Shown here one piece after another: positions 10,020 through 26,195 of a stretch of DNA of 36,288 bases. The DNA lies in the IMG/VR virus record IMGVR_UViG_3300007960_000071, positions 1-36,288 of that record; one strand, given 5' to 3'. The position numbers and the translations under genes are program-made. Position 1 is the first letter of the stretch. Each line of letters starts with the position of its first letter. Source of the stretch: a virus. The notes beneath the pieces were generated by a model. The model saw only the letters and a list, made by a program, of their open reading frames with translations. It did no database searches and had not been told where the DNA came from.

Positions 10020-12800
10020 TTAGGCCAGTGACTCGGTGATGCCGGAGGCACCGACGCTCACCTTGAGCTGCTCGATGACCTTGTTGAAGTTCAGCACGAT
10101 GTCGAGGTTCGCGATTCCGAGATCGATCTCGGACTGCGGGTTGTTGTCCTCGTCGATCTTCACCGAGAAGGCGTGCGAGCCTCCGGACGGGATCACGATG
10201 ACTCGCTTCGCCTCCTCCTTCTTCAGGTAGTCCGTGACGACCGCCCTGAGGAGACCCCAGGTGTACTTGTCGTTCAGCGCGAAGATCGCGAAGTCGAACT
10301 GATCGACGAAGACCCACACGTAGTGGCTCATCTGGAGTCGGTTGTTGAGCTGCCGCCAGACCGTGTTGTTGTAGAGGGTCCGCGTCCCCCAGGCCACGTA
10401 GGACCCGCCCCGCTTCTTGATGACGTTGATCCCCGCCGGGTAGAGGATCTCCTCGTTCATCGCCTCGTAGCCCGTAGGCAGGGACTTGACGCGGGGCATC
10501 CGAGACCCGTCACCCGCCGCTGGCACGTGGTAGCCGGCGTTCGCCACGGCGAGCCGGGCCCAGTTGCCGAGCTGCATCGCGGTCGTGCTGACCAGCTTCA
10601 GCGCCCCCGGACGGTCCGGGTCCGGAGCGTAGGCCAGGCTCGGGACGTAGCACGCCGCCATGTCGCTGCGCCCGACGGTCGTGTTGAGGTACGTCAGGAT
10701 GTCGGCCTCGTCGGTCTTCGACTTCGGCAGCTCAACGAAATACTGGTAGGGCTTCGTCTCGCAGTAGGTGATCGCCCGCTGGTGGACCGTCGCCGAGTCC
10801 CCCGCACTGAGGATCTCCGTGATGCCAGGGCACAGGATGGAGACCACCCCGTAGCCCTCCTCGGCGGCCGTGTTGAACGGGCTCGTCAGGGTGGCGAAGG
10901 CGTCGAGGAAGTCCTGGAGGTCGGGGACGTCGCCGTCGTAGCCGCCAGATGCCTGCTGGAGGTACTGGACCTCCACCTCGGTGCCCTCGGCCCCGTAGGT
11001 GACACCCACCGTCAGACCGAGAACCGTGTAGGCGTCCGCAGCGACCGTGACGATCTCGACGGACGAGCCCGGGCCGCCGCCGTCGAAGCCGCCGGGCGAG
11101 GTCAGCAGGACCTTCGTCCCGGAGACGCTTGCCGGGTTCAGGACGCCCGCGCCGAAGACGGCGTCGAAGGCTCCGTTGATGTCGGCGACGACGTCAGCCG
11201 CCGTCTGGGTCGCGCCGGCGGTCAGGGTCACGTCCACCTGATCCCGCCCGTCGATGATCAGGGAGACCGCATCGTCGACGCCGAGCGTGATGTTGAACGA
11301 CTCGTCTGCGGTTCCGGTCACCGAGGCGACCGTGGCGGCGGTCGCAGTCGCCGACGGGTCGCCCGACTCCACCGTGATCGAGTTGTACGCGACCGAGCCG
11401 ATCGCGAGCCCGGTGAACTGCGCCCCGGTCTTGTCGGGGTAGACGAGGCCTCCGACCATCCCCGCGTCAGGCGGGAAGACGTCGATCGCGAACTGGTCCC
11501 CGTCCGTCGGGTCCGCGTCGTGGTCCACCGTGACGATCGGGAGCCAGGGGTGCGAGGAGGTGTAGGTCTGGTTGTACTTCGGCGCAGCGGCGATGGCGAA
11601 GTTCGGGAGGTTGTAGACCTCCACGTCGTCCTGGCTGGTCGCAGAGACCGCGACGGTGTAGTAGTTGCTCGCGGCGACCCAGGTGAAGGTCAAGCGGAGC
11701 GGCACGAGCGCCACGGCACCCGAGATCGCGGCAGCGTGAGCCGTCGCGCTGGCGATCTTGATCTTCGTCGGTGCGTCGTTCTGCGCGATCTGGAACGGGT
11801 TCACCGTCAGCTTCGTGGCGGTGGCAGCCACCGTCATCCCGTAGTAGTTCGCAGGCCGCACGTCAGGCACGATGCTCGTGCCGTTCGGTAGGAGGTCCGT
11901 GGCGTCGAACTCGAGGTTCGAGTCGTCGTCGTTGATCACGTCGACAGCGTAGTTGCTCGCCGTCGGGTCCATCGAGAGGTCGGTCCACCCGTGGATCTTC
12001 TCTCCGTCGAGGTACACGTCGAGGCCGAACTCGTTCGCGGGGTCCTTCGACCCGTCAAGGACCCGCACCGAGAGGCCCTTCCGACGGCCGGACGCGAGGA
12101 CGTCGTTGTCGAGAATCACCTCGTAGTCCACCGTCGTCTGGACGCCTCCGGTCGTCGCGTCGGTGTTCATCGTCGAGTCCGACTTCACCGTCAGGACGCC
12201 AGCCACGTCGTTGGTGAGGACCGTGTACTCCTTCGCGGCGGAGGTCGTGTGATCTCCCCGCAGGAGGACCGTCGCGCCGGCCCACTCGTTCTTCGCCATG
12301 GCGACCCCCGTGGCGAGGGTCGTCTCCGTCAGGGCGCTCGAGATCGTGATGTCGCCCGAGATCCGGCGTCGCCGGCCTGCCCAGCGCCCACCATCCTTCG
12401 CCGTGAGCTGGAGCACGGGGATCCGGACCTGGCTCTGGTTGTCCTTCTCCGTCGTCGGGGCGATGAAGCCCGCGCCATAGCCGCGTCCGAACAGCTTCAG
12501 GCCGGCCGCTTCCTCGGCCCCGTCAGTGACCCGCACCGCGAGCCCGATCCCCGCGCCGGACGAGCGGTCCCAGAAGTCCTGCACCGCATCCGGCGCCATG
12601 GTCCCGGTCAGGCGCCCGCCCACCTTTCGCTTGACGGACTTGGGCCCAAGCATCTTGAGGAGGGACCCTGGGGCCCCGCGCTCGAAGACGCCGACGAAGC
12701 CCGCCGTGCCGAAGTTCCCGGGCTGGATCGGCCCCTGGGCGGCCTCCTCAGAGACGTTGACGCCGGCCGCGTTTGTGACGCCGTAGCTGCGCGTTACCAT
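10020..12800 (-). CDS. Tail sheath protein, large with central insertions
   Basis: The N-terminus (GVNVSEEAAQGPIQPGNFGTAGFVGVFERG) and the C-terminus (YVAWGTRTLYNN, VDQFDFAIFALNDKYTWGLLRAVVTDYLKKE, LDIVLNFNKVIEQLKVSVG) are those of contractile tail sheaths, the C-terminal part being the conserved inner domain. At 926 aa it is longer than most sheaths (about 400-700 aa). The extra mass is a beta-rich central section. One part, about residues 495-620, reads like flagellar hook-IN modules (TAADVVADINGAFDAVFG, then GTKVLLTSPGGFDGG). Insertions in sheaths are normally exposed on the outside. The ATG at 12800 has an AGGAG site. Confidence 0.92.
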   Translation of the reverse strand: MVTRSYGVTNAAGVNVSEEAAQGPIQPGNFGTAGFVGVFERGAPGSLLKMLGPKSVKRKVGGRLTGTMAPDAVQDFWDRSSGAGIGLAVRVTDGAEEAAGLKLFGRGYGAGFIAPTTEKDNQSQVRIPVLQLTAKDGGRWAGRRRRISGDITISSALTETTLATGVAMAKNEWAGATVLLRGDHTTSAAKEYTVLTNDVAGVLTVKSDSTMNTDATTGGVQTTVDYEVILDNDVLASGRRKGLSVRVLDGSKDPANEFGLDVYLDGEKIHGWTDLSMDPTASNYAVDVINDDDSNLEFDATDLLPNGTSIVPDVRPANYYGMTVAATATKLTVNPFQIAQNDAPTKIKIASATAHAAAISGAVALVPLRLTFTWVAASNYYTVAVSATSQDDVEVYNLPNFAIAAAPKYNQTYTSSHPWLPIVTVDHDADPTDGDQFAIDVFPPDAGMVGGLVYPDKTGAQFTGLAIGSVAYNSITVESGDPSATATAATVASVTGTADESFNITLGVDDAVSLIIDGRDQVDVTLTAGATQTAADVVADINGAFDAVFGAGVLNPASVSGTKVLLTSPGGFDGGGPGSSVEIVTVAADAYTVLGLTVGVTYGAEGTEVEVQYLQQASGGYDGDVPDLQDFLDAFATLTSPFNTAAEEGYGVVSILCPGITEILSAGDSATVHQRAITYCETKPYQYFVELPKSKTDEADILTYLNTTVGRSDMAACYVPSLAYAPDPDRPGALKLVSTTAMQLGNWARLAVANAGYHVPAAGDGSRMPRVKSLPTGYEAMNEEILYPAGINVIKKRGGSYVAWGTRTLYNNTVWRQLNNRLQMSHYVWVFVDQFDFAIFALNDKYTWGLLRAVVTDYLKKEEAKRVIVIPSGGSHAFSVKIDEDNNPQSEIDLGIANLDIVLNFNKVIEQLKVSVGASGITESLA

Positions 12801-17976: not shown

Positions 17977-19182
17977 TTAGACGCCCGTGCCGACGTTCTT
18001 GATCTTGACCACCGAGTTGACGTCCTCGAGCGCGATCCCGACCTTCGTCGAGATGACGTACTCGCTGACACGCCGGTGGATGTTCCGGTCGCGCTCGATC
18101 CGGATGTCGCGAGACACCGCGAGGATGATGTTGCTCTTGTGGGTCACGATGATCTGCGGGTTCGACTCGTAGGTCACCTTGACGGTGTCGCCGTCGCCGA
18201 TGGTCGAGCCGCCGGTCCGCGCCAGGGTCCCGAGCGTCGCGTCCAGCACGTAGTCGGTGCTGGAGCTGTACTCGGCCGTCGGGGTCCCCGCGAGGGTCGA
18301 CGGGGTCACGACGGCGTTCTGCAGCGGGGCGTAGCGCAGCGAGGTCGCGGTCGTCGAGTTCAGGACGACGTGCTCGACGACGCGGGGCCGGAAGGGCAGC
18401 AGGGCGAGGTCGACCCCCTCCAGCCCGAACGGCTTCGGCACGGACCCGCCACCCATCGCCAGGTCACCGGCAGCAGTGCCACGGCTGGCCACGCGCTCCC
18501 GCCAGAGCTCGAAGATGTCGCTCGGGGCCATGAACCGGAGGTCGCGCCGGTTGCGGCGGTACTTCGTCGGGAGAGCGGTGATGGCCTGCCGCATGAGCGA
18601 GACGCCCATGTTCGCGCCCTGCGCGTCGACCACCTGGCCCGAGTCCGCGAGACGCAGGAGGCCGTCGAAGAGGCCGATGTAGCCGTCAGCGACGTAGTTG
18701 ACCGCGTCGCCTCCCGGGAACAGGTCGTCCTGGATCCGCGCGGGGCCCAGGAGGTCGCCGTTGACCCAGAGCTCCTCGAGGTCGTTCGACAGGGAGGTCG
18801 CCATCAGCCGCACGACGTGGTCGCGGGCCGAGGTCTGCTCCACGTTCCGCTCGACGAAGCCGTCGCCGATGTCGAACGGGAGCATCACCTCCGCCGTCTG
18901 GAGGTCGACCGCCGAGGTCGTCACGCCGCGACGCACCCCGGGATCCTGGCCGGCCACGGCGGGGACAGCGTTGCGCGCGCCGACGCCGATCTTGTTGACC
19001 CGCCACTTGTCGCCCTTGGCGATCTTGACGATGCGCGCGTTGCCCTTGAGCGCGGTCTCGTCGATCACGTAGTCGAGGAACTTGTTGGCCTCCTGAACGG
19101 GGATCTCGCCGGCCGACGCCAGGGCGTCCGCCTCGATGACCGCCTTCTCCAGGAGCTCCTCGTTGGTCATGGTCTTCTTCAT
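17977..19182 (-). CDS. Major capsid protein (HK97-like fold)
   Basis: The 401-aa protein follows the protease and scaffold genes, the standard capsid position, and has a typical size. Features fitting HK97-like capsids include an N-terminal helical arm, a beta-rich E-loop-like section (KWRVNKIGVGARNAVPAV), a long spine-helix region (SARDHVVRLMATSLSNDLEELWVNGDLL), the LRFMAPSDIFELWRERVASR segment, and a C-terminal IILAVSRDIRIERDRNIHRRVSEYVISTKVGIAL ending. The ATG has a GGAAGGT site. The protease upstream probably trims the arm. No cross-link residues can be assigned by eye. Confidence 0.9.
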   Translation of the reverse strand: MKKTMTNEELLEKAVIEADALASAGEIPVQEANKFLDYVIDETALKGNARIVKIAKGDKWRVNKIGVGARNAVPAVAGQDPGVRRGVTTSAVDLQTAEVMLPFDIGDGFVERNVEQTSARDHVVRLMATSLSNDLEELWVNGDLLGPARIQDDLFPGGDAVNYVADGYIGLFDGLLRLADSGQVVDAQGANMGVSLMRQAITALPTKYRRNRRDLRFMAPSDIFELWRERVASRGTAAGDLAMGGGSVPKPFGLEGVDLALLPFRPRVVEHVVLNSTTATSLRYAPLQNAVVTPSTLAGTPTAEYSSSTDYVLDATLGTLARTGGSTIGDGDTVKVTYESNPQIIVTHKSNIILAVSRDIRIERDRNIHRRVSEYVISTKVGIALEDVNSVVKIKNVGTGV

Positions 19183-19250: not shown

Positions 19251-20162
19251 CTAGCTGCTGAAGTCCCCCTCGAGGAAGGACCACGAGGCAGGCTCGACCT
19301 TCTTGCTCAGGGGGGTCTCCCCGTGAAGGGCCTTGGAGCTCCCCGCCTGCTCGAGGATCTCGACCTTCTTCTGGAGCTCGATGTACCGGGGGTCCGCAGT
19401 GACCGCGTCCGGCGCCGACTTGGTGACCGTGAGGTCGGCCTTCACGACCGCCATGGCCTCGTCGATGAGCGCGACGGCCTTTGCGATGTCCTCCGGTCCC
19501 TTCGCGGACTTGAGGACGTCGTCCGCACGCTTCGTGAGCAGCGCGATCTGGGCGGTGTCGTGGACGCTCCAGATGACGTCGGACATCGCGTAGAGCTTCT
19601 TCTTGAGGCTCTCGAGGTCCATGCCGTCGACGTCGTCGCCGAGCTCCTTCGCCACGGCGGCGATCGTCGACAGCTTCTCCCGGAGAAGCTCCTTGTGCAG
19701 GTTCCCGGCGCCGGCAGCGGCGGGGGCGTCCGGGGCTGGGGGGTCGACCACGCCGTCGGTCTCCTTCGTGGTCGCAACGGGGACCGCCGGGGCAGCGGCG
19801 GGAGCGGGGGCAGCGGCGGGCTGAACCCCGAGCGCCGACTTGTCGATGTCCAGGGCCGCCGCCAGCTTCTCCATCATGTCCTCGGCGAGCTCGTCCGCAG
19901 CTCCTGCCTCGAGGGACTCGATGAAGGCCACGTCCGCCCCGACGAGCTCGGCGAGCTCGGCAACGCTCAGCCCCTTCTCCTCGCGAGCCTTCTTGATCAA
20001 GTCGCCCATAGTGATTTCCGCTCCGTGGTCGGTCGAGCTGCCGTCGGCGCTCTTGACGATCACGAACTTCTCCGCGATCGCCGGGTTGTCAACGATGCTG
20101 AGCTCCTTGACCGAGATGTCCAGGAGTCGACGCTTGGCTGCAGGCTCTGTGCTCTTTGCCAT
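19251..20162 (-). CDS. Scaffold-position capsid assembly protein with XRE-type HTH domain
   Basis: The ATG at 20162 gives 303 aa. A longer frame would overlap the protease C-terminus. Residues 1-40 carry RRLLDISVKELSIVDNPAI, a motif seen at the start of many capsid-maturation proteins next to XkdF-type proteases. Residues 51-110 form a clear XRE/HTH_3 pattern (MGDLIKKAREEKGLSVAELA, VGADVAFIESLEAG, LAAALDID). An Ala/Pro-rich linker (113-152) then leads to a helical, coiled-coil-like C-terminal half (154-285). Position between protease and capsid and the helical tail suggest a scaffold or protease-associated protein. The HTH may bind DNA or be a structural module. Confidence 0.75.
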   Translation of the reverse strand: MAKSTEPAAKRRLLDISVKELSIVDNPAIAEKFVIVKSADGSSTDHGAEITMGDLIKKAREEKGLSVAELAELVGADVAFIESLEAGAADELAEDMMEKLAAALDIDKSALGVQPAAAPAPAAAPAVPVATTKETDGVVDPPAPDAPAAAGAGNLHKELLREKLSTIAAVAKELGDDVDGMDLESLKKKLYAMSDVIWSVHDTAQIALLTKRADDVLKSAKGPEDIAKAVALIDEAMAVVKADLTVTKSAPDAVTADPRYIELQKKVEILEQAGSSKALHGETPLSKKVEPASWSFLEGDFSS

Positions 20163-20167
20163 GTAGG

Positions 20168-22897
20168 TCACCCGTCCAGCTTCTCGGTCTCCGACGCCGT
20201 CCCGCCGATCGAGAAGCCGCGAAGCTCGCCTTTCTTTACGCTTTCCCAAGTCTCATCGTCAAGGATCTTGAAGGCAGCCATCCAGGTCCCCTTCAGGATC
20301 TTCCGTCCCTCCACCGTGAAGTCGACCGGGGCGACGTAGCTCTCGACCACCAGGAACGCCCGGTCGAAGTCCTTGTGCATCAACCCGGTCTTGCTGGTGA
20401 CGTTGATCCCCGCAAGCCAGTCGTGGGCCGCCTTCTCGATGGCCTCACTGCTGATGATGTCTCCCTGCAGGTCAACCGTCTCGGGGATCAGGACAGGACC
20501 GAGGACGATGCGCTGCTCCTCGAGCGCCTTGACGACCTCGAAGGACGGACCGCCCGTCGTCGCCCGCTTGGCCAGAGGGTTCGGCGTCACGAAGTGGGGC
20601 TCGTGCTCCGCGAACTTCGCGACCACCCAGGTGTCGGCTCCCTTGGCGGTCACCGCAGCCAGGTACTTCTCGGCCTTGGCGGTGAGCTCCTTCACCTTCG
20701 CCGCCGTCAGCAGCTCGTGCTTGGCCTGCGGGATCCGGGCCAGGGCGTTCCGGAGATGCGGGACGTCGACCTCGCCCTCGTCGTCCCTGAACGGGAAGTA
20801 GCGAAGGTCGCGCGGCGTGGTCTTGCCTCCGGACTTCTTGCCTCCGGGGGCGACCCACAGGAAGGCGCTGTCAGGGAGGTCATCGACGTAGCTCCTCGAC
20901 CACACCGCCTTCACGACTTCGAGGTCGGACGGGACCCGCATGAAGACGTAGCGGCCCGACATCTTGTCACCGTCGAAGAAGAACTCCTTGAACCCCTCCT
21001 CCTGCTCACCCGCCACCCACTTCACGACGTCGAGCTGGCTCACCACCTTCCCGTCGGTGGACTTCATCACCACGGACGGGTCGGCCGCGAACGGCTCGAG
21101 GACCTTGAGGCTCCCCCGGTGGACCTTGTCGTCCGACCCCGGTGCCCCGAGAGCCTTCGTGACCTCGCTCACCATCGTCACGATCCCAGACCCGTCCGCC
21201 ATCATCTGATCGAGGCGGTCCGCTCCGTCCTTCGCGAGCGGGCTCAGCAGCGTCCCGCCCTGCCAGTGGTCGTCGGGCCTCTTGCCCATCTTGCGCATCA
21301 TCACCTTCGTGACGACCACCTCCCCCTGCTCCCAGAGCTGGATGGAGGCGGTGCCGGAGTCCCCGACTCGGTAGTCGAAGTCTCCGATCATCTTCTCCAG
21401 GCGACGGACGACGCCGAAGTCCCCGCTCGGGACCAGGACGAGGTCGTAGAGCGGGATGTGCTCGTAGGCGTGGTGCCCCACCGCCGTCTTGTTCACGACC
21501 GCCTCCGTCGGGACCGGCAGGCACCTCGACACGGCGTCCTCGACCATGTCGTCCGCGAACCTCAGCACGAGCTCCCCGCCAGGGCCCATCACGACTGCGT
21601 CCTCGGCCACCATCAGGGGGCCGTTGAGGAAGGACGCGCCACCCACCTCGACCAGGTTCGACCCGACGCTCCCCTCCACCTCGACCATCTTCTGGACCCG
21701 CTCGCCTGCCCAGGTCTTGCCGGCGCCGCCACCGAGGAGCATCGGGCCGATCCCAGACGGGGTCATCTCCGGCGCACCCGACGAGGCGAAGTAGTTCGCC
21801 AGCTTGAGGATGTCCCAGTGCTCGAGCGGCTCCCGCTCGGCGATCCGCTTCGCGAGGCTCAGCACGGGGCCGTCACCGTGCAGCCTCCCGATGTCGCTCG
21901 CGATGGCGAGCTTCGCGATCATGGCCATGTCCGCTGGCGGCCGGCAGTCGACGTTCCTGTAGGTCTCGCTGTCGTTCACCATCTCGCAGATCGCGTCGTC
22001 ATCGCTCGTCCAGTCGCAGACCACGACGTCGGCGTAGTCCTCGAGAAGCCCCATCGACTTCGTCGTCTGCTCGTAGTTCGTGACGATGAGGGTCCCGAGC
22101 TTGGCCCCGGCGCCCATGTTCCCCGTCTGCCCGAACGACCGCCTCGGGCAGATCCGCTTCCGGTGGAACGCGGTGTCCTTGACCATCACCGGGAACCTGC
22201 CTCGGATCCCGTAGGTGATCAGGAAGTGCCCCTTGAGCCCCTTGATGGTCTCCAGGAAGCCGTCCTCGTCGAAGTCCTTCTCGCGAAGCCTGGCGTTGTA
22301 GCCGGGGTACGGCGGGTCCAGGAAGTGGAGGGAGTCGGCCCCATCGTGCTTCATCAGCGGGCCGACGTAGTCCCCCGTGTAGACGCTGACGCCGGCGAGC
22401 CGGTCGCGGTACTTCCTGACCTTCGCGGTCCTCTGGGTCTGCATCCCCTGGCTCGACGGGTTGAAGCCCGCCTGCGGCATGATCCCGAAGGAGAACCGGG
22501 TGATGTACAGCCACCTGTGGAGGCGACCGACCTTGCCCAGCGACTTCGGGTCTGCGGCGTACAGGGTGTTGAACGTCTTCCGGTCGCCGGTCCAGGGCAT
22601 CTTCTCGAGGACGTCGAGGTCGGCGTCGGAGAGGGTCTGAATCGCCGAGTAGGCGGCAGCGATCTCCTCGTTGAAGTCGTTCAGGACCTCGGTCGCGACC
22701 TTCTCCTTGCGGAAGAAGACGGCCGCGCTCCCGGCGAACACCTCCGTGTAGGCGCTGTGTGCCGGGGTCAGCAGCTTCAGGATCACCTTCGCGAGGCGCA
22801 TCTTCCCGCCGGGTGATCCCCAGATGTTCTTCCGCACGAAGTGAGCCGACCCCATGTACGAGTCGATCCCGCCGTCGTCCACCCTGCTCCTGCCCAT
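20168..22897 (-). CDS. D12-class DNA adenine methyltransferase fused to XkdF-like prohead serine protease
   Basis: The uninterrupted 909-aa frame starts at an ATG with GAGGT seven bases upstream. Residues 20-300 look like a D12 (Dam-like) N6-adenine methyltransferase: SPGGKMRLA at 28-36, the SAM-binding YTEVFAGSAAVFF at 50-62, and LDPPYPGY at 193-200. Residues 430-680 are an alpha/beta region I cannot name. Residues 673-745 (LPDSAFLWVAPGGKKSGGKT, TPRDLRYFPFRDD, HLRNALARIPQA) match a small domain often beside prohead proteases. Residues 788-905 resemble XkdF (QRIVLGPVLIPETVDLQGD, TGLMHKDF with H841, ELRGFSIGG with S896). It lies between portal and capsid, as a maturation protease should. Whether the methyltransferase is active is unknown. 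Confidence 0.85.
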   Translation of the reverse strand: MGRSRVDDGGIDSYMGSAHFVRKNIWGSPGGKMRLAKVILKLLTPAHSAYTEVFAGSAAVFFRKEKVATEVLNDFNEEIAAAYSAIQTLSDADLDVLEKMPWTGDRKTFNTLYAADPKSLGKVGRLHRWLYITRFSFGIMPQAGFNPSSQGMQTQRTAKVRKYRDRLAGVSVYTGDYVGPLMKHDGADSLHFLDPPYPGYNARLREKDFDEDGFLETIKGLKGHFLITYGIRGRFPVMVKDTAFHRKRICPRRSFGQTGNMGAGAKLGTLIVTNYEQTTKSMGLLEDYADVVVCDWTSDDDAICEMVNDSETYRNVDCRPPADMAMIAKLAIASDIGRLHGDGPVLSLAKRIAEREPLEHWDILKLANYFASSGAPEMTPSGIGPMLLGGGAGKTWAGERVQKMVEVEGSVGSNLVEVGGASFLNGPLMVAEDAVVMGPGGELVLRFADDMVEDAVSRCLPVPTEAVVNKTAVGHHAYEHIPLYDLVLVPSGDFGVVRRLEKMIGDFDYRVGDSGTASIQLWEQGEVVVTKVMMRKMGKRPDDHWQGGTLLSPLAKDGADRLDQMMADGSGIVTMVSEVTKALGAPGSDDKVHRGSLKVLEPFAADPSVVMKSTDGKVVSQLDVVKWVAGEQEEGFKEFFFDGDKMSGRYVFMRVPSDLEVVKAVWSRSYVDDLPDSAFLWVAPGGKKSGGKTTPRDLRYFPFRDDEGEVDVPHLRNALARIPQAKHELLTAAKVKELTAKAEKYLAAVTAKGADTWVVAKFAEHEPHFVTPNPLAKRATTGGPSFEVVKALEEQRIVLGPVLIPETVDLQGDIISSEAIEKAAHDWLAGINVTSKTGLMHKDFDRAFLVVESYVAPVDFTVEGRKILKGTWMAAFKILDDETWESVKKGELRGFSIGGTASETEKLDG

Positions 22898-22955: not shown

Positions 22956-24707
22956 CTACTCGACCCGGGCCTCGAGATCCTCGATGGCCTCCGCCAGCTT
23001 CACGAGCTCCTGCTCGATCTGCTCCACCTTCATCTCTGGGACCCCAAGCGTCGGGTTGGCCGGTGGCATCACCGGGGCGACCTGCTGGTTGATCTCGCCA
23101 CCGAGCGCTTGGTTCTTGATCCGCTCTGCGACCTGGATCGAGTACGGGACGTCGGGGTCGATGCCTCCCTCGGTGGGCGGCTTGAAGGTCCTGACGTCTT
23201 CGCCGAGCTTCGGGAACACCTCTTCGACGATCGTCCTCGAGATCCTCGGGGTCACCCCGCCGGTCCTCTCCGCCGCCGTCAGCATCAGGATCAGGTCCTT
23301 GTTGTCGGTGACGTTCGGAGTGTTCGTCACGAACATCCAGTGCTCGACGCCCCACTCCGCGAACAAGACGTTGTTGAAGAACCAGTCCTCCTCGTCACGC
23401 TCCGGCGCGAAGACCTGCTCGTCGGCGAGACGTCGCGAGAGCTCGGCCGTCGACTTGTTGTAGCCGCCGGCGAGGCCGAGGTAGATCGGCGGGAGCCGAA
23501 AGGACTGGAGCACCCTCTCCTCGTTCGACTTGATGTAGTCCCCGAAGAGCATGTCCCGGATCTGGCTCCCTTCGAGCGGGTGGACGTCGATCTTGACCTG
23601 GTTGCTCTCGTCGCCCTCGTACTCGCTCTCGCCCTCGACCAGGAGGACGGTGGAGAAGTTCGCGTTCCCCTTGACGTGGTTGTCGACGTAGTCGGTGATC
23701 CGCTTGATGGTCCCGGCTGTGAGCCTGCCGTTGCTCACGGTCATCATCAGCGACGGGATCCCGTTGTTCTGGATCGTGTGGATGTTGGTCGTGTCTCCCG
23801 ACCTCGTCCCGATCACGCTCATAATCGCGCTCACCCAGCGAGGGATCCCGTAGACCGAGCGATCCGATGTACCGAAATGGTACACCTCCGACGCCTTCCG
23901 GTACTCCGGCATCGGTTCCTCGGTGTCCTCGAACGACGCGGCCTGTTCCTCGGTGACCACCCGTCCGGTCAGGTTGTCGATGATCCTCGGGTCGCCGTAC
24001 TCCTTGAAGTACCGGACCCGGTTGTCGGCCTTCGCGCTGTCCAGCGTGGACGACTGCACTGCCTGGACGTAGCGGCGGAACCTGCTGGACGCCGGGAGCT
24101 TCATGTACCCGGCAGTCCCGTCTTCGTTGATCTGCGGGACCGAGATGATGTGGTCGGTGTAGTCCGGATCCTGCTTCGTGATCCGCATCTGCTGCGACTT
24201 GAGCCACTTGCAGGCGACCACCACGTTGGTCGACGGATTGCGGATGAACTCCAGGTAAGCGTTCCCCGTCTTCTCCTCGTCGCGGCGCCTCATGCGCCTG
24301 AGCTTCGTGAAGCTCATCTCTCGACTGAAGGCCCGGAGTCGGTTCTCGATCGCCCGACGCTCGTGCGTCGCCGCCTGCTTGAGCTCCTCCGAGGCGTTCG
24401 CCGGGAGCCTGGACACGAGGCGGTGGCCGAAGCCCGGGATGTTCGCCTCCATCGTCTCGATCGCCCCGGCGAGCGTGATCGAAATCTCGCTCAGCTTCAC
24501 GAGGGTGTTCGGGTCGTATGGCGGCTCAACGAGGTCTGACGAAACGCTCTCGAACGGGTCATCAGACATAGCGCGAGTCACCGCGATGCCAGGCCCCGGC
24601 CTGCTGATCTCCTCTTCGCCGGCCGCCTTGAACACCACGGCACGGACCTGCCTCGCGGTGTGCCGCTCGAGCTTCTCAATCGACTTGCGGACGATCTCCT
24701 CGGACAT
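22956..24707 (-). CDS. Portal protein (PBSX/SPP1-like family)
   Basis: At 583 aa and directly after the large terminase, this is the portal ring subunit at the packaging vertex. The tract YLEFIRNPSTNVVVACKWL, then KASEVYHFGTSDRSVYGIPRW, then LTAGTIKRITDYVDNHVKGNAN and RVLQSFRLPPIYLGLAGGYN followed by a helix starting KSTAELSRRLADEQVF, are characteristic of PBSX-type portals. The C-terminus is a helical crown (MKVEQIEQELVKLAEAIEDLEAR). A GTG at 24710 precedes the ATG at 24707 and is equally possible. The portal forms the DNA channel and the docking site for terminase and connector. Confidence 0.92.
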   Translation of the reverse strand: MSEEIVRKSIEKLERHTARQVRAVVFKAAGEEEISRPGPGIAVTRAMSDDPFESVSSDLVEPPYDPNTLVKLSEISITLAGAIETMEANIPGFGHRLVSRLPANASEELKQAATHERRAIENRLRAFSREMSFTKLRRMRRRDEEKTGNAYLEFIRNPSTNVVVACKWLKSQQMRITKQDPDYTDHIISVPQINEDGTAGYMKLPASSRFRRYVQAVQSSTLDSAKADNRVRYFKEYGDPRIIDNLTGRVVTEEQAASFEDTEEPMPEYRKASEVYHFGTSDRSVYGIPRWVSAIMSVIGTRSGDTTNIHTIQNNGIPSLMMTVSNGRLTAGTIKRITDYVDNHVKGNANFSTVLLVEGESEYEGDESNQVKIDVHPLEGSQIRDMLFGDYIKSNEERVLQSFRLPPIYLGLAGGYNKSTAELSRRLADEQVFAPERDEEDWFFNNVLFAEWGVEHWMFVTNTPNVTDNKDLILMLTAAERTGGVTPRISRTIVEEVFPKLGEDVRTFKPPTEGGIDPDVPYSIQVAERIKNQALGGEINQQVAPVMPPANPTLGVPEMKVEQIEQELVKLAEAIEDLEARVE

Positions 24708-24725
24708 CACTCACCCCGTCTGCGC

Positions 24726-26195
24726 CTAGAACAACCCCGGCTCGGGCCGTGGCTTCTTCTTCTTCGTCTGAATCGCGCGAACCATCAAGTCCCACGCGTC
24801 GACCGCATCGTCCTTGCGGCCCTTGTCCCCGGTGAAGGCCACAAGCTGGTCGATCAGCGCGTCCATCCCGTTCACGACGAAGACCTGTCCGTTCTCGAAG
24901 AGGGGGGTGCGCCTCTGGAGGCGGGTGAACTTGTCGACGGTGGGCGCATACGGGACGATCGGCACCAGCGCGTCCTTCGCCTTCACGTGATCGATGAGGG
25001 CGCTCTGGTAGCCCACCGCTTCGACCACTCCACGGACAATGTCGTGGCGATCGCACAGCTCGAGGATGATCTCGCGCTGTCGGCTGAAGCTGAAGCGCCC
25101 ACTCACCTTGTCGATCGCGTAGATGTTCCCCGTCGCCTTGTCGTAGGCGCCGACGATCGCCCAGAACTCGTCGTGCTGCTTCTTCTGCCCGATCGCCAGG
25201 TCGACGCCAAGGTACTTCGGAAGCCCCTCTGGGACCTCGTGGAGCGAGATCCTGTTGATCTCGTCGTACTTGATGAGCCCACCCCCCGCCATCGGGCGGA
25301 CGTTCTGCTGGTACTGCGACTCGAACGAGATCCGTGAGCCCGACCTCAGCTTCCTGAGGTACCCGAGCGAGAACTTGTCCGGCCAGGAGGAACGCTCCTC
25401 GCCGTCCTCGTCGAGGTAGATCGCCGGGATGATCAGGGTGGCCGACCCGTTGAGGGGGCCCTCCTTCGCCTCCCTCTCGGACCCCAGCGCCGGCGGGGCT
25501 CCAAGCGCCCAGCCGAGATCGTTCGGGTGGTACCTCGTGTTCGTGAGCCACACGTTGTGGTCGTCCGGCTCAAGAACAGGGATGCACGTCTTCCAGAAGA
25601 ACTTCTCCAGCTTGTCCCGCTGGAGCGCCGTCCTCGACGTCTCCTCGTCCCAGAGGTCGTCCGCGAAGAGGTCGTTCGCGTGCCGCGACGCGACGGCCGT
25701 GTCTGGTGAGATCACCGAGATCGTGGCCTCGCGGTGGATGCTCCGCCGCCCCTTCACGGTGATCTCGTCCAGGTTCCAGTTGTCGCCGACGAAGTCGCCG
25801 AAGATGGCCCTGAACTTCTCGTTCCGCTCGAGGTGCTGCTTCACAGCCGCAAGGGAGTCGCGAGCGTTCTTCGCCGACCGACTCCCGAAGATGATCCGGC
25901 GGTTCGGGTCCAGGACGATCTGGTGGATCGCCTTCACGACCGTGCGCATCAGCGTCTTGCCGGATCCACGCCACGCGAGGGCGAGCCCCCAACTGTGCTC
26001 GAACTGGTGCTGAAGCATCAGGAGGTGATGCCAGTTCAAGGTGTAGCCGAGGACGTCCCTCGCGAGGACGTCTACGCGGCGCTGGTCCACGATGAGCTCG
26101 CGAATCGTGGCCTCGTAGAGGGCCTCGATGTCATCGAGCTGTTCGTGGAGCCTGCGCCGGCTGACGATCGTGACGCTCGGGCTACCCGAGGGCAA
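24726..26195 (-). CDS. Terminase large subunit
   Basis: The 489-aa protein has the ATPase and nuclease halves of a large terminase. Walker A-like ALAWRGSGKT is at about 72-81, the acidic Walker B-like NDLFADDLWDE at 174-184, and a coupling motif TNTRYH at 218-223. The nuclease half shows GVDLAI (D332), VEAVGYQSAL (E392) and a C-terminal GRKDDAVDAWDLMVRA, the RNase-H-like acidic set. A TTG at 26195, overlapping the previous gene by 14 bases, gives this length; no ATG or GTG occurs before about residue 40, so the start is uncertain. It packages genomic DNA into the prohead through the portal. Confidence 0.92.
   Translation of the reverse strand: MPSGSPSVTIVSRRRLHEQLDDIEALYEATIRELIVDQRRVDVLARDVLGYTLNWHHLLMLQHQFEHSWGLALAWRGSGKTLMRTVVKAIHQIVLDPNRRIIFGSRSAKNARDSLAAVKQHLERNEKFRAIFGDFVGDNWNLDEITVKGRRSIHREATISVISPDTAVASRHANDLFADDLWDEETSRTALQRDKLEKFFWKTCIPVLEPDDHNVWLTNTRYHPNDLGWALGAPPALGSEREAKEGPLNGSATLIIPAIYLDEDGEERSSWPDKFSLGYLRKLRSGSRISFESQYQQNVRPMAGGGLIKYDEINRISLHEVPEGLPKYLGVDLAIGQKKQHDEFWAIVGAYDKATGNIYAIDKVSGRFSFSRQREIILELCDRHDIVRGVVEAVGYQSALIDHVKAKDALVPIVPYAPTVDKFTRLQRRTPLFENGQVFVVNGMDALIDQLVAFTGDKGRKDDAVDAWDLMVRAIQTKKKKPRPEPGLF

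Follow-up and report, generated by a model that had tools for sequence, protein, structure and literature searches.

A Dam-like adenine methyltransferase fused to an XkdF-like head maturation protease, a candidate polyvalent protein of tailed phages

We identified a phage gene that joins, in one open frame, a D12 class N6-adenine methyltransferase domain and an XkdF-like head maturation protease domain. The gene lies in a 36,288-base virus record, the whole of which is called the window below. The fusion recurs, with its position among the head genes and its catalytic residues conserved and its methyltransferase domain under purifying selection, and the cargo carried by related proteases is swapped. 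From these comparisons we consider it on balance probable that the head maturation protease acts as a polyvalent protein, in which XkdF would bring the D12 domain into the prohead as anti-restriction cargo, probably for delivery with the DNA.

Architecture of the fusion gene

On the minus strand the gene runs as an open frame of 909 codons from an ATG at 22897 to 20168. The start codon is preceded by a GAGGTG resembling a ribosome binding site with a 4-nt spacer, and the stop codon falls within a few nucleotides of the start of the next gene. Pfam places MethyltransfD12 at residues 29–201 (48.1 bits against a cut-off of 22) and Peptidase_S78_2/XkdF at residues 787–905 (103.6 bits against a cut-off of 24), with no Pfam domain between them. 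Both domains had been called in one 909-aa frame at 20168–22897 by a preliminary description of this DNA; the two calls and the open frame stand, the strand having been left unstated, while the region between the domains, put there at about 250 residues, is closer to 500 (about 287 to 786). The features of the gene, all on the minus strand, are as follows.

20168..22897, minus strand: whole fusion gene, 909 aa, D12–middle region–XkdF; open frame with ribosome binding site; 49% identical full-length homologue in locus L011
22037..22834, minus strand: predicted D12 class N6-adenine methyltransferase domain, residues 22–287; PF02086 over cut-off; model pLDDT mostly 75–95; PDB matches E. coli Dam, DpnM and T4Dam
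22802..22816, minus strand: motif SPGGK, residues 28–32; GGK or AGK in nearly all first-copy fused D12 domains
22721..22744, minus strand: motif EVFAGSAA, residues 52–59, SAM-binding motif I; conserved in fused homologues covering it
22307..22318, minus strand: motif DPPY, residues 194–197, catalytic motif IV; DPPY in all fused first copies, DPPF in L090
21668..21958, minus strand: helical module, residues 314–410; helical in two AlphaFold2 models
20918..21637, minus strand: middle alpha/beta region, residues 421–660; tentatively a decayed nucleotidyltransferase/LigD-phosphoesterase-like region
20663..20917, minus strand: LPDSAF...HLRNALARIPQ module, residues 661–745; 55% identical to L011
20183..20539, minus strand: XkdF-like head maturation protease domain, Peptidase_S78_2 (PF14550), residues 787–905; H841, E852 and S896 invariant

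The three methyltransferase motifs thus occur in the order SPGGK, EVFAGSAA, DPPY. At the other end of the protein the XkdF domain stops 4 residues short of the C-terminus, and the genes for the terminase large subunit (TerL) and the portal protein are adjacent. H841, E852 and S896 are invariant in 46 XkdF proteins and are candidates for catalysis in what is presumably an active protease. We take XkdF to be a member of the assemblin superfamily. In one account it is called unrelated to the main prohead peptidase (PMC7824862).

Genomic position

The gene order is TerL, portal, fusion, a gene with XRE-type and scaffold-like parts, and capsid protein. Sheath, tape measure and baseplate genes follow these head genes, and the window phage is therefore a myovirus. 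The neighbouring genes are listed here.

24726..26195, minus strand: terminase large subunit gene; phrog_38, E 1.8e-65
22956..24710, minus strand: portal protein gene, upstream of the fusion; phrog_12, E 2e-20
19251..20162, minus strand: downstream gene, XRE-type HTH and scaffold-like; Pfam HTH_3; 29% identical homologue directly downstream of the L011 fusion
17977..19182, minus strand: major capsid protein candidate; phrog_1623 virion structural protein, E 3.6e-59; L057 gene 43% identical

The fusion gene lies between the portal and major capsid protein genes, as is characteristic of the XkdF protease class and exactly where the preliminary description had expected the protease. Nearly all homologous loci with enough flanking sequence likewise have the portal gene upstream and the capsid protein gene downstream, and the other window proteins that were scanned contain no head-protease match.

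Two neighbouring genes are unusual. The gene at 19251–20162 (minus strand) has a VDNPA-type head-protein N-terminus, together with an XRE helix-turn-helix and a tail that is scaffold-like. It is odd for a head gene to contain a DNA-binding regulator domain; L011 keeps the same order (29% identity). The tail sheath gene at 10020–12800 (minus strand) encodes 926 aa and is seemingly long, the PHROG sheath match covering residues 416–914 only.

Recurrence of the fusion

Known from a single metagenomic record, such a fusion might be two genes merged through a frameshift in sequencing or through chimeric assembly, an explanation whose probability we now consider negligible. A search with the protease domain identified a separate 5.7-kb viral contig (L011) on which the 900-aa protein is encoded in full, with an identity of 49% (58% in D12, 67% in the protease and 38% in the middle, with a poorly conserved stretch of 35% just before XkdF). 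In L011 the scaffold-like downstream gene is conserved and a portal fragment is 59% identical to that of the window. This full-length homologue on an unrelated contig, together with even GC across the fusion gene, rules out both forms of artefact, and dozens of further fusions were found, some of which, such as those behind L139, L150 and L154, come from IMG isolate-type records. Among them is a compact 507-aa D12–XkdF protein without the long middle (L031/L057, 80-kb contig); the portal and capsid genes on either side of its gene are relatives of the window's.

The relatives were found by the protease-domain scan; scans of viral contigs with the whole protein and with D12 alone returned no close relatives, and two scans of genome contigs returned no fused protein. 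A plasmid search with the compact fusion found no record covering 80% of it, the best matches being free D12 genes. For a wider scan we used a five-sequence XkdF alignment as query and kept the best 80 of 440 relatives. D12 is present in frame in 15 of 53 protease clusters (70% identity) of this sample, which favours relatives of the window's protease, so that the resulting 28% is not a general rate. Across all loci, 32 XkdF frames, some of them near-duplicates, contain at least one D12 domain, several contain two, and one (L104) contains three; this count relies on a custom D12 HMM, while Pfam independently confirms D12 in 18 of 46 proteins. The fusion therefore recurs, both at full length and across protease clusters, and the earlier view that it is meaningful stands.

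The methyltransferase domain

With respect to whether the domain is alive (METHYLTRANSFERASE), motif I and DPPY are retained in every first-copy fused D12 that covers them (the latter as DPPF in L090), and GGK or AGK in nearly all first copies. Loss of GGK/DPPY in homologues, named in the preliminary description as the mark of an inert domain, is not what we observed. Second copies often have GGS for GGK, and that of L147 reads IYPPY; some second copies may be altered or inert.

The fused D12 domain is under purifying selection. In pairs of related fusions, dN/dS is 0.09–0.31 for D12 and 0.09–0.16 for XkdF; between the window and L011, where dS is near saturation, the values are 0.35 and 0.16. 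An AlphaFold2 model from a 15-sequence alignment has pLDDT mostly 75–95 in the D12 part, and its best PDB matches are E. coli Dam, DpnM and T4Dam (4rtj, E 8e-11; 2dpm, E 3e-10). Structure prediction, which the preliminary description had proposed as a check, was thus informative for D12, which is modelled well with a Dam-like fold, but not for the middle region, for which pLDDT is about 37 when modelled alone. Profile, motifs and fold all assign the window domain to the D12 class, and an active N6-adenine methyltransferase is the predicted function.

In a tree with a limited sample of 26 free-standing D12 proteins from phages, plasmids and genomes, all 22 fused D12 domains form one clade (support 100/98.6), which marks them as a subfamily that is old and has been maintained. 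Over the protease tree there are 12 changes of the D12 label, of which at least four are forced by supported branches. D12 has therefore been gained or lost repeatedly on the XkdF protease, as is expected of exchangeable cargo.

The middle region

The middle region has no Pfam match and no PDB sequence match. In a one-sequence search, residues 473–654 align weakly (E 1e-4) to residues 999–1186 of the L058 protein, which lie upstream of its DNA ligase domain. As a candidate LigD-like phosphoesterase/nucleotidyltransferase, the region thus combines the lack of a Pfam match and the unreliable model with this weak alignment, because of which we tentatively suggest that the window's middle may descend from a ligase-type module. 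To the eye, the helical module at residues 314–410 is like a module N-terminal to XkdF in L013, L018 and L025. The module at residues 661–745 is also 49% identical to a head-module protein of Thermoanaerobacterium phage THSA-485A, matches a head gene in L015 and is present in L130.

Cargo range of XkdF proteases

XkdF proteases carry several enzymes besides D12. In the 46 XkdF proteins Pfam detects, in addition to the 18 with D12, ATP-dependent DNA ligase in nine, InPase and Methyltransf_11 in three each, uracil-DNA glycosylase (UDG) and 2H phosphoesterase in two each, and the Thoeris inhibitor Tad3 in one. The largest assortment is in L162 (1814–7351, 1846 aa), where D12, Methyltransf_11, ATP-dependent DNA ligase, UDG and XkdF share one frame; L165 has the same frame. 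A 1972-aa frame in L058 (7263–13178) reads D12–D12–(nucleotidyltransferase/phosphoesterase-like; LigD-like)–ligase–XkdF, and its central part resembles an 'ATP-dependent DNA ligase' protein of ANMV-1 virus. The 1491-aa protein of L104 (1153–5625) contains three D12 domains by the custom HMM (four Pfam stretches), Tad3 and a C-terminal XkdF, which puts an immunity inhibitor within a putative head protein. An XkdF protease in L013 (4555–5700) has a UDG-like N-terminal part, with Pfam UDG below its cut-off.

Pseudomonas phage proteins labelled 'DNA methyltransferase' might have been further fusions. Those inspected are XkdF proteases only, of 138–156 aa, and were not counted. Labels of this kind, (DNA) methyltransferase on an XkdF protease alone, are found in L003 (3920–4390), L004 (2920–3390), L005 (3977–4393) and L009 (3370–3822), and the label of phrog_1530 probably leaked from a fused family.

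Relation to known systems

Proteins of this general kind are known. The wider class of polyvalent proteins was described by Iyer et al. 2017 (PMC5512222); these carry several unrelated enzymes per polypeptide, occur in a portal–terminase context and have an assemblin-like peptidase, invariably at the C-terminus, whose probable task is the processing of virion proteins. The window protein likewise has two unrelated enzymatic domains in its polypeptide (up to five in L162), a peptidase at its C-terminus and a portal–terminase setting, and InPase and 2H domains are common to their set and the XkdF set. However, most of their methyltransferases belong to the EcoKI/TaqI-like gamma class and are joined to SF2 helicases (the DarB type), a dyad lacking in the window protein, which has D12 and XkdF only; the term D12 was not found in that paper.

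The virion of phage P1 contains the anti-restriction protein DarB, which is believed to enter the cell, and the P1 prohead protease Pro cleaves DarA (PMC9024508, PMC12810830). P1 thus has anti-restriction proteins in the virion and a prohead protease that processes a Dar protein, a likeness to what is proposed for the window fusion, and its DarB, portal and Pro genes are neighbouring ORFs. In P1, however, DarB, DarA and Pro are encoded by separate genes and the methyltransferase is of another class, whereas the window has one polypeptide. XkdF/Peptidase_S78_2 proteases of PBSX, Enterococcus phage EG-TP1 and Pseudomonas phage K8 have the same domain at the same locus, but those inspected are 138–350 aa and are without enzymatic cargo. 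Dam, DpnM and T4Dam share the fold and motifs of the window D12 but are free-standing, the fused domains forming a separate clade.

The closest annotated family is phrog_13242 (PHROGs v4, 'unknown function', 450 positions), which likewise has D12 and XkdF in one protein. It matches L150, L154 and L139 at more than 1000 bits as well as both domains of L031, and the window protein at 350 bits. It represents a compact 460-aa form that lacks the window's 500-residue middle, and no function is assigned to it. The preliminary description knew of no standard annotation for the fusion; this is correct as to function, although PHROGs v4 already holds the fusion and the polyvalent class has been described (PMC5512222). 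In the open literature searched, we found no description of the D12–XkdF architecture or its cargo breadth, or of ligase, UDG or Tad3 being carried on XkdF proteases. The kind is known, and the D12–XkdF architecture sits unannotated in PHROGs.

Proposed mechanism and alternatives

In the reading that we favour, the C-terminal XkdF domain would take the polypeptide into the assembling prohead and would perform or trigger maturation cleavage there, with the N-terminal D12 domain carried as cargo in the form of a working methyltransferase. Enclosed with the genome, D12 may methylate it during packaging, be ejected with it, or both. The most likely use would be anti-restriction, with incoming DNA protected ahead of early-gene expression. 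We infer presence in the virion and injection on three grounds: the prohead interior is where the protease has to work; the cargo (methyltransferase, ligase, glycosylase, cyclic-nucleotide or immunity-related enzymes) suits DNA entry over head building; and P1 offers a precedent in DarB and DarA (PMC9024508, PMC12810830). Methyltransferase, ligase, UDG, 2H phosphoesterase and Tad3 could all be needed at once by incoming phage DNA. Packaging and delivery explain the occurrence of the last four on the same protease better than the single expression switch proposed in the preliminary description, which is the less persuasive mechanism, since adjacent late genes share their expression in any case.

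Several considerations count against this reading. Known head proteases of other families can digest themselves and exit the mature head, and the cargo could therefore be destroyed. Equally, the methyltransferase might do its work in the producing cell only, in which case the fusion would fix late timing and dose, newly replicated phage DNA would be methylated ahead of packaging or during it, progeny would leave protected and nothing would be injected. D12 proteins are ordinary phage enzymes, free D12 genes are common in phages, and a late operon position would be enough for such a role. However, this leaves ligase, UDG, 2H phosphoesterase and Tad3 on the same chassis unexplained, with no obvious late use to the head, and does not say why a separate neighbouring gene would be insufficient; we judge it unlikely, though a serious possibility.

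XkdF might cut itself free of a polyprotein, after which the methyltransferase in the cytoplasm and the protease would act separately; the preliminary description had also raised release of the methyltransferase by cleavage, and head proteases are known to act on themselves as well as on other proteins. The poorly conserved stretch before XkdF would be compatible with a cleavable linker. Against this, no conserved internal start for a separate protease product is shared ahead of XkdF, and the long conserved middle would be needless for a simple polyprotein, which makes this reading improbable. More doubtful still is that D12 is a relic with a non-catalytic DNA-binding or scaffolding role in the prohead core. 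The altered motifs of second copies would fit such a role, but the retention of first-copy catalytic motifs across very divergent fusions, the purifying selection and the predicted Dam/DpnM fold make it very unlikely.

If the delivery reading is correct, the protection of DNA at the moment of entry has been solved by joining a defence enzyme to an obligate capsid-interior protein, and D12 peptides are predicted in virions, as is methylation without phage gene expression. It would give a function to phrog_13242, account for the misleading label on Pseudomonas phage proteases, and make XkdF both a natural capsid-loading tag and, by 'guilt by fusion', a marker domain for new anti-defence cargo. 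A broader proposal, which we hold to be possible but somewhat short of probable, is that in a large group of tailed phages the head maturation proteases form a general exchangeable delivery chassis. The protease domain would load DNA methyltransferases, DNA ligases, uracil-DNA glycosylases and immunity inhibitors such as Tad3 into every capsid as one giant polypeptide, and its ejection would serve to modify, repair and shield the genome as infection begins.

Restriction site content

The window shows no depletion of GATC (observed/expected 1.0), which therefore points to neither a target site nor restriction pressure and counts against the favoured reading. In L031 (17.2 kb), which carries the compact fusion, neither CCGG nor GGCC occurs, where about 18 and 15 would be expected; this points strongly to restriction avoidance. 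L139 (14.3 kb) has three GATC sites against 21 expected, despite the Dam-like domain aboard.
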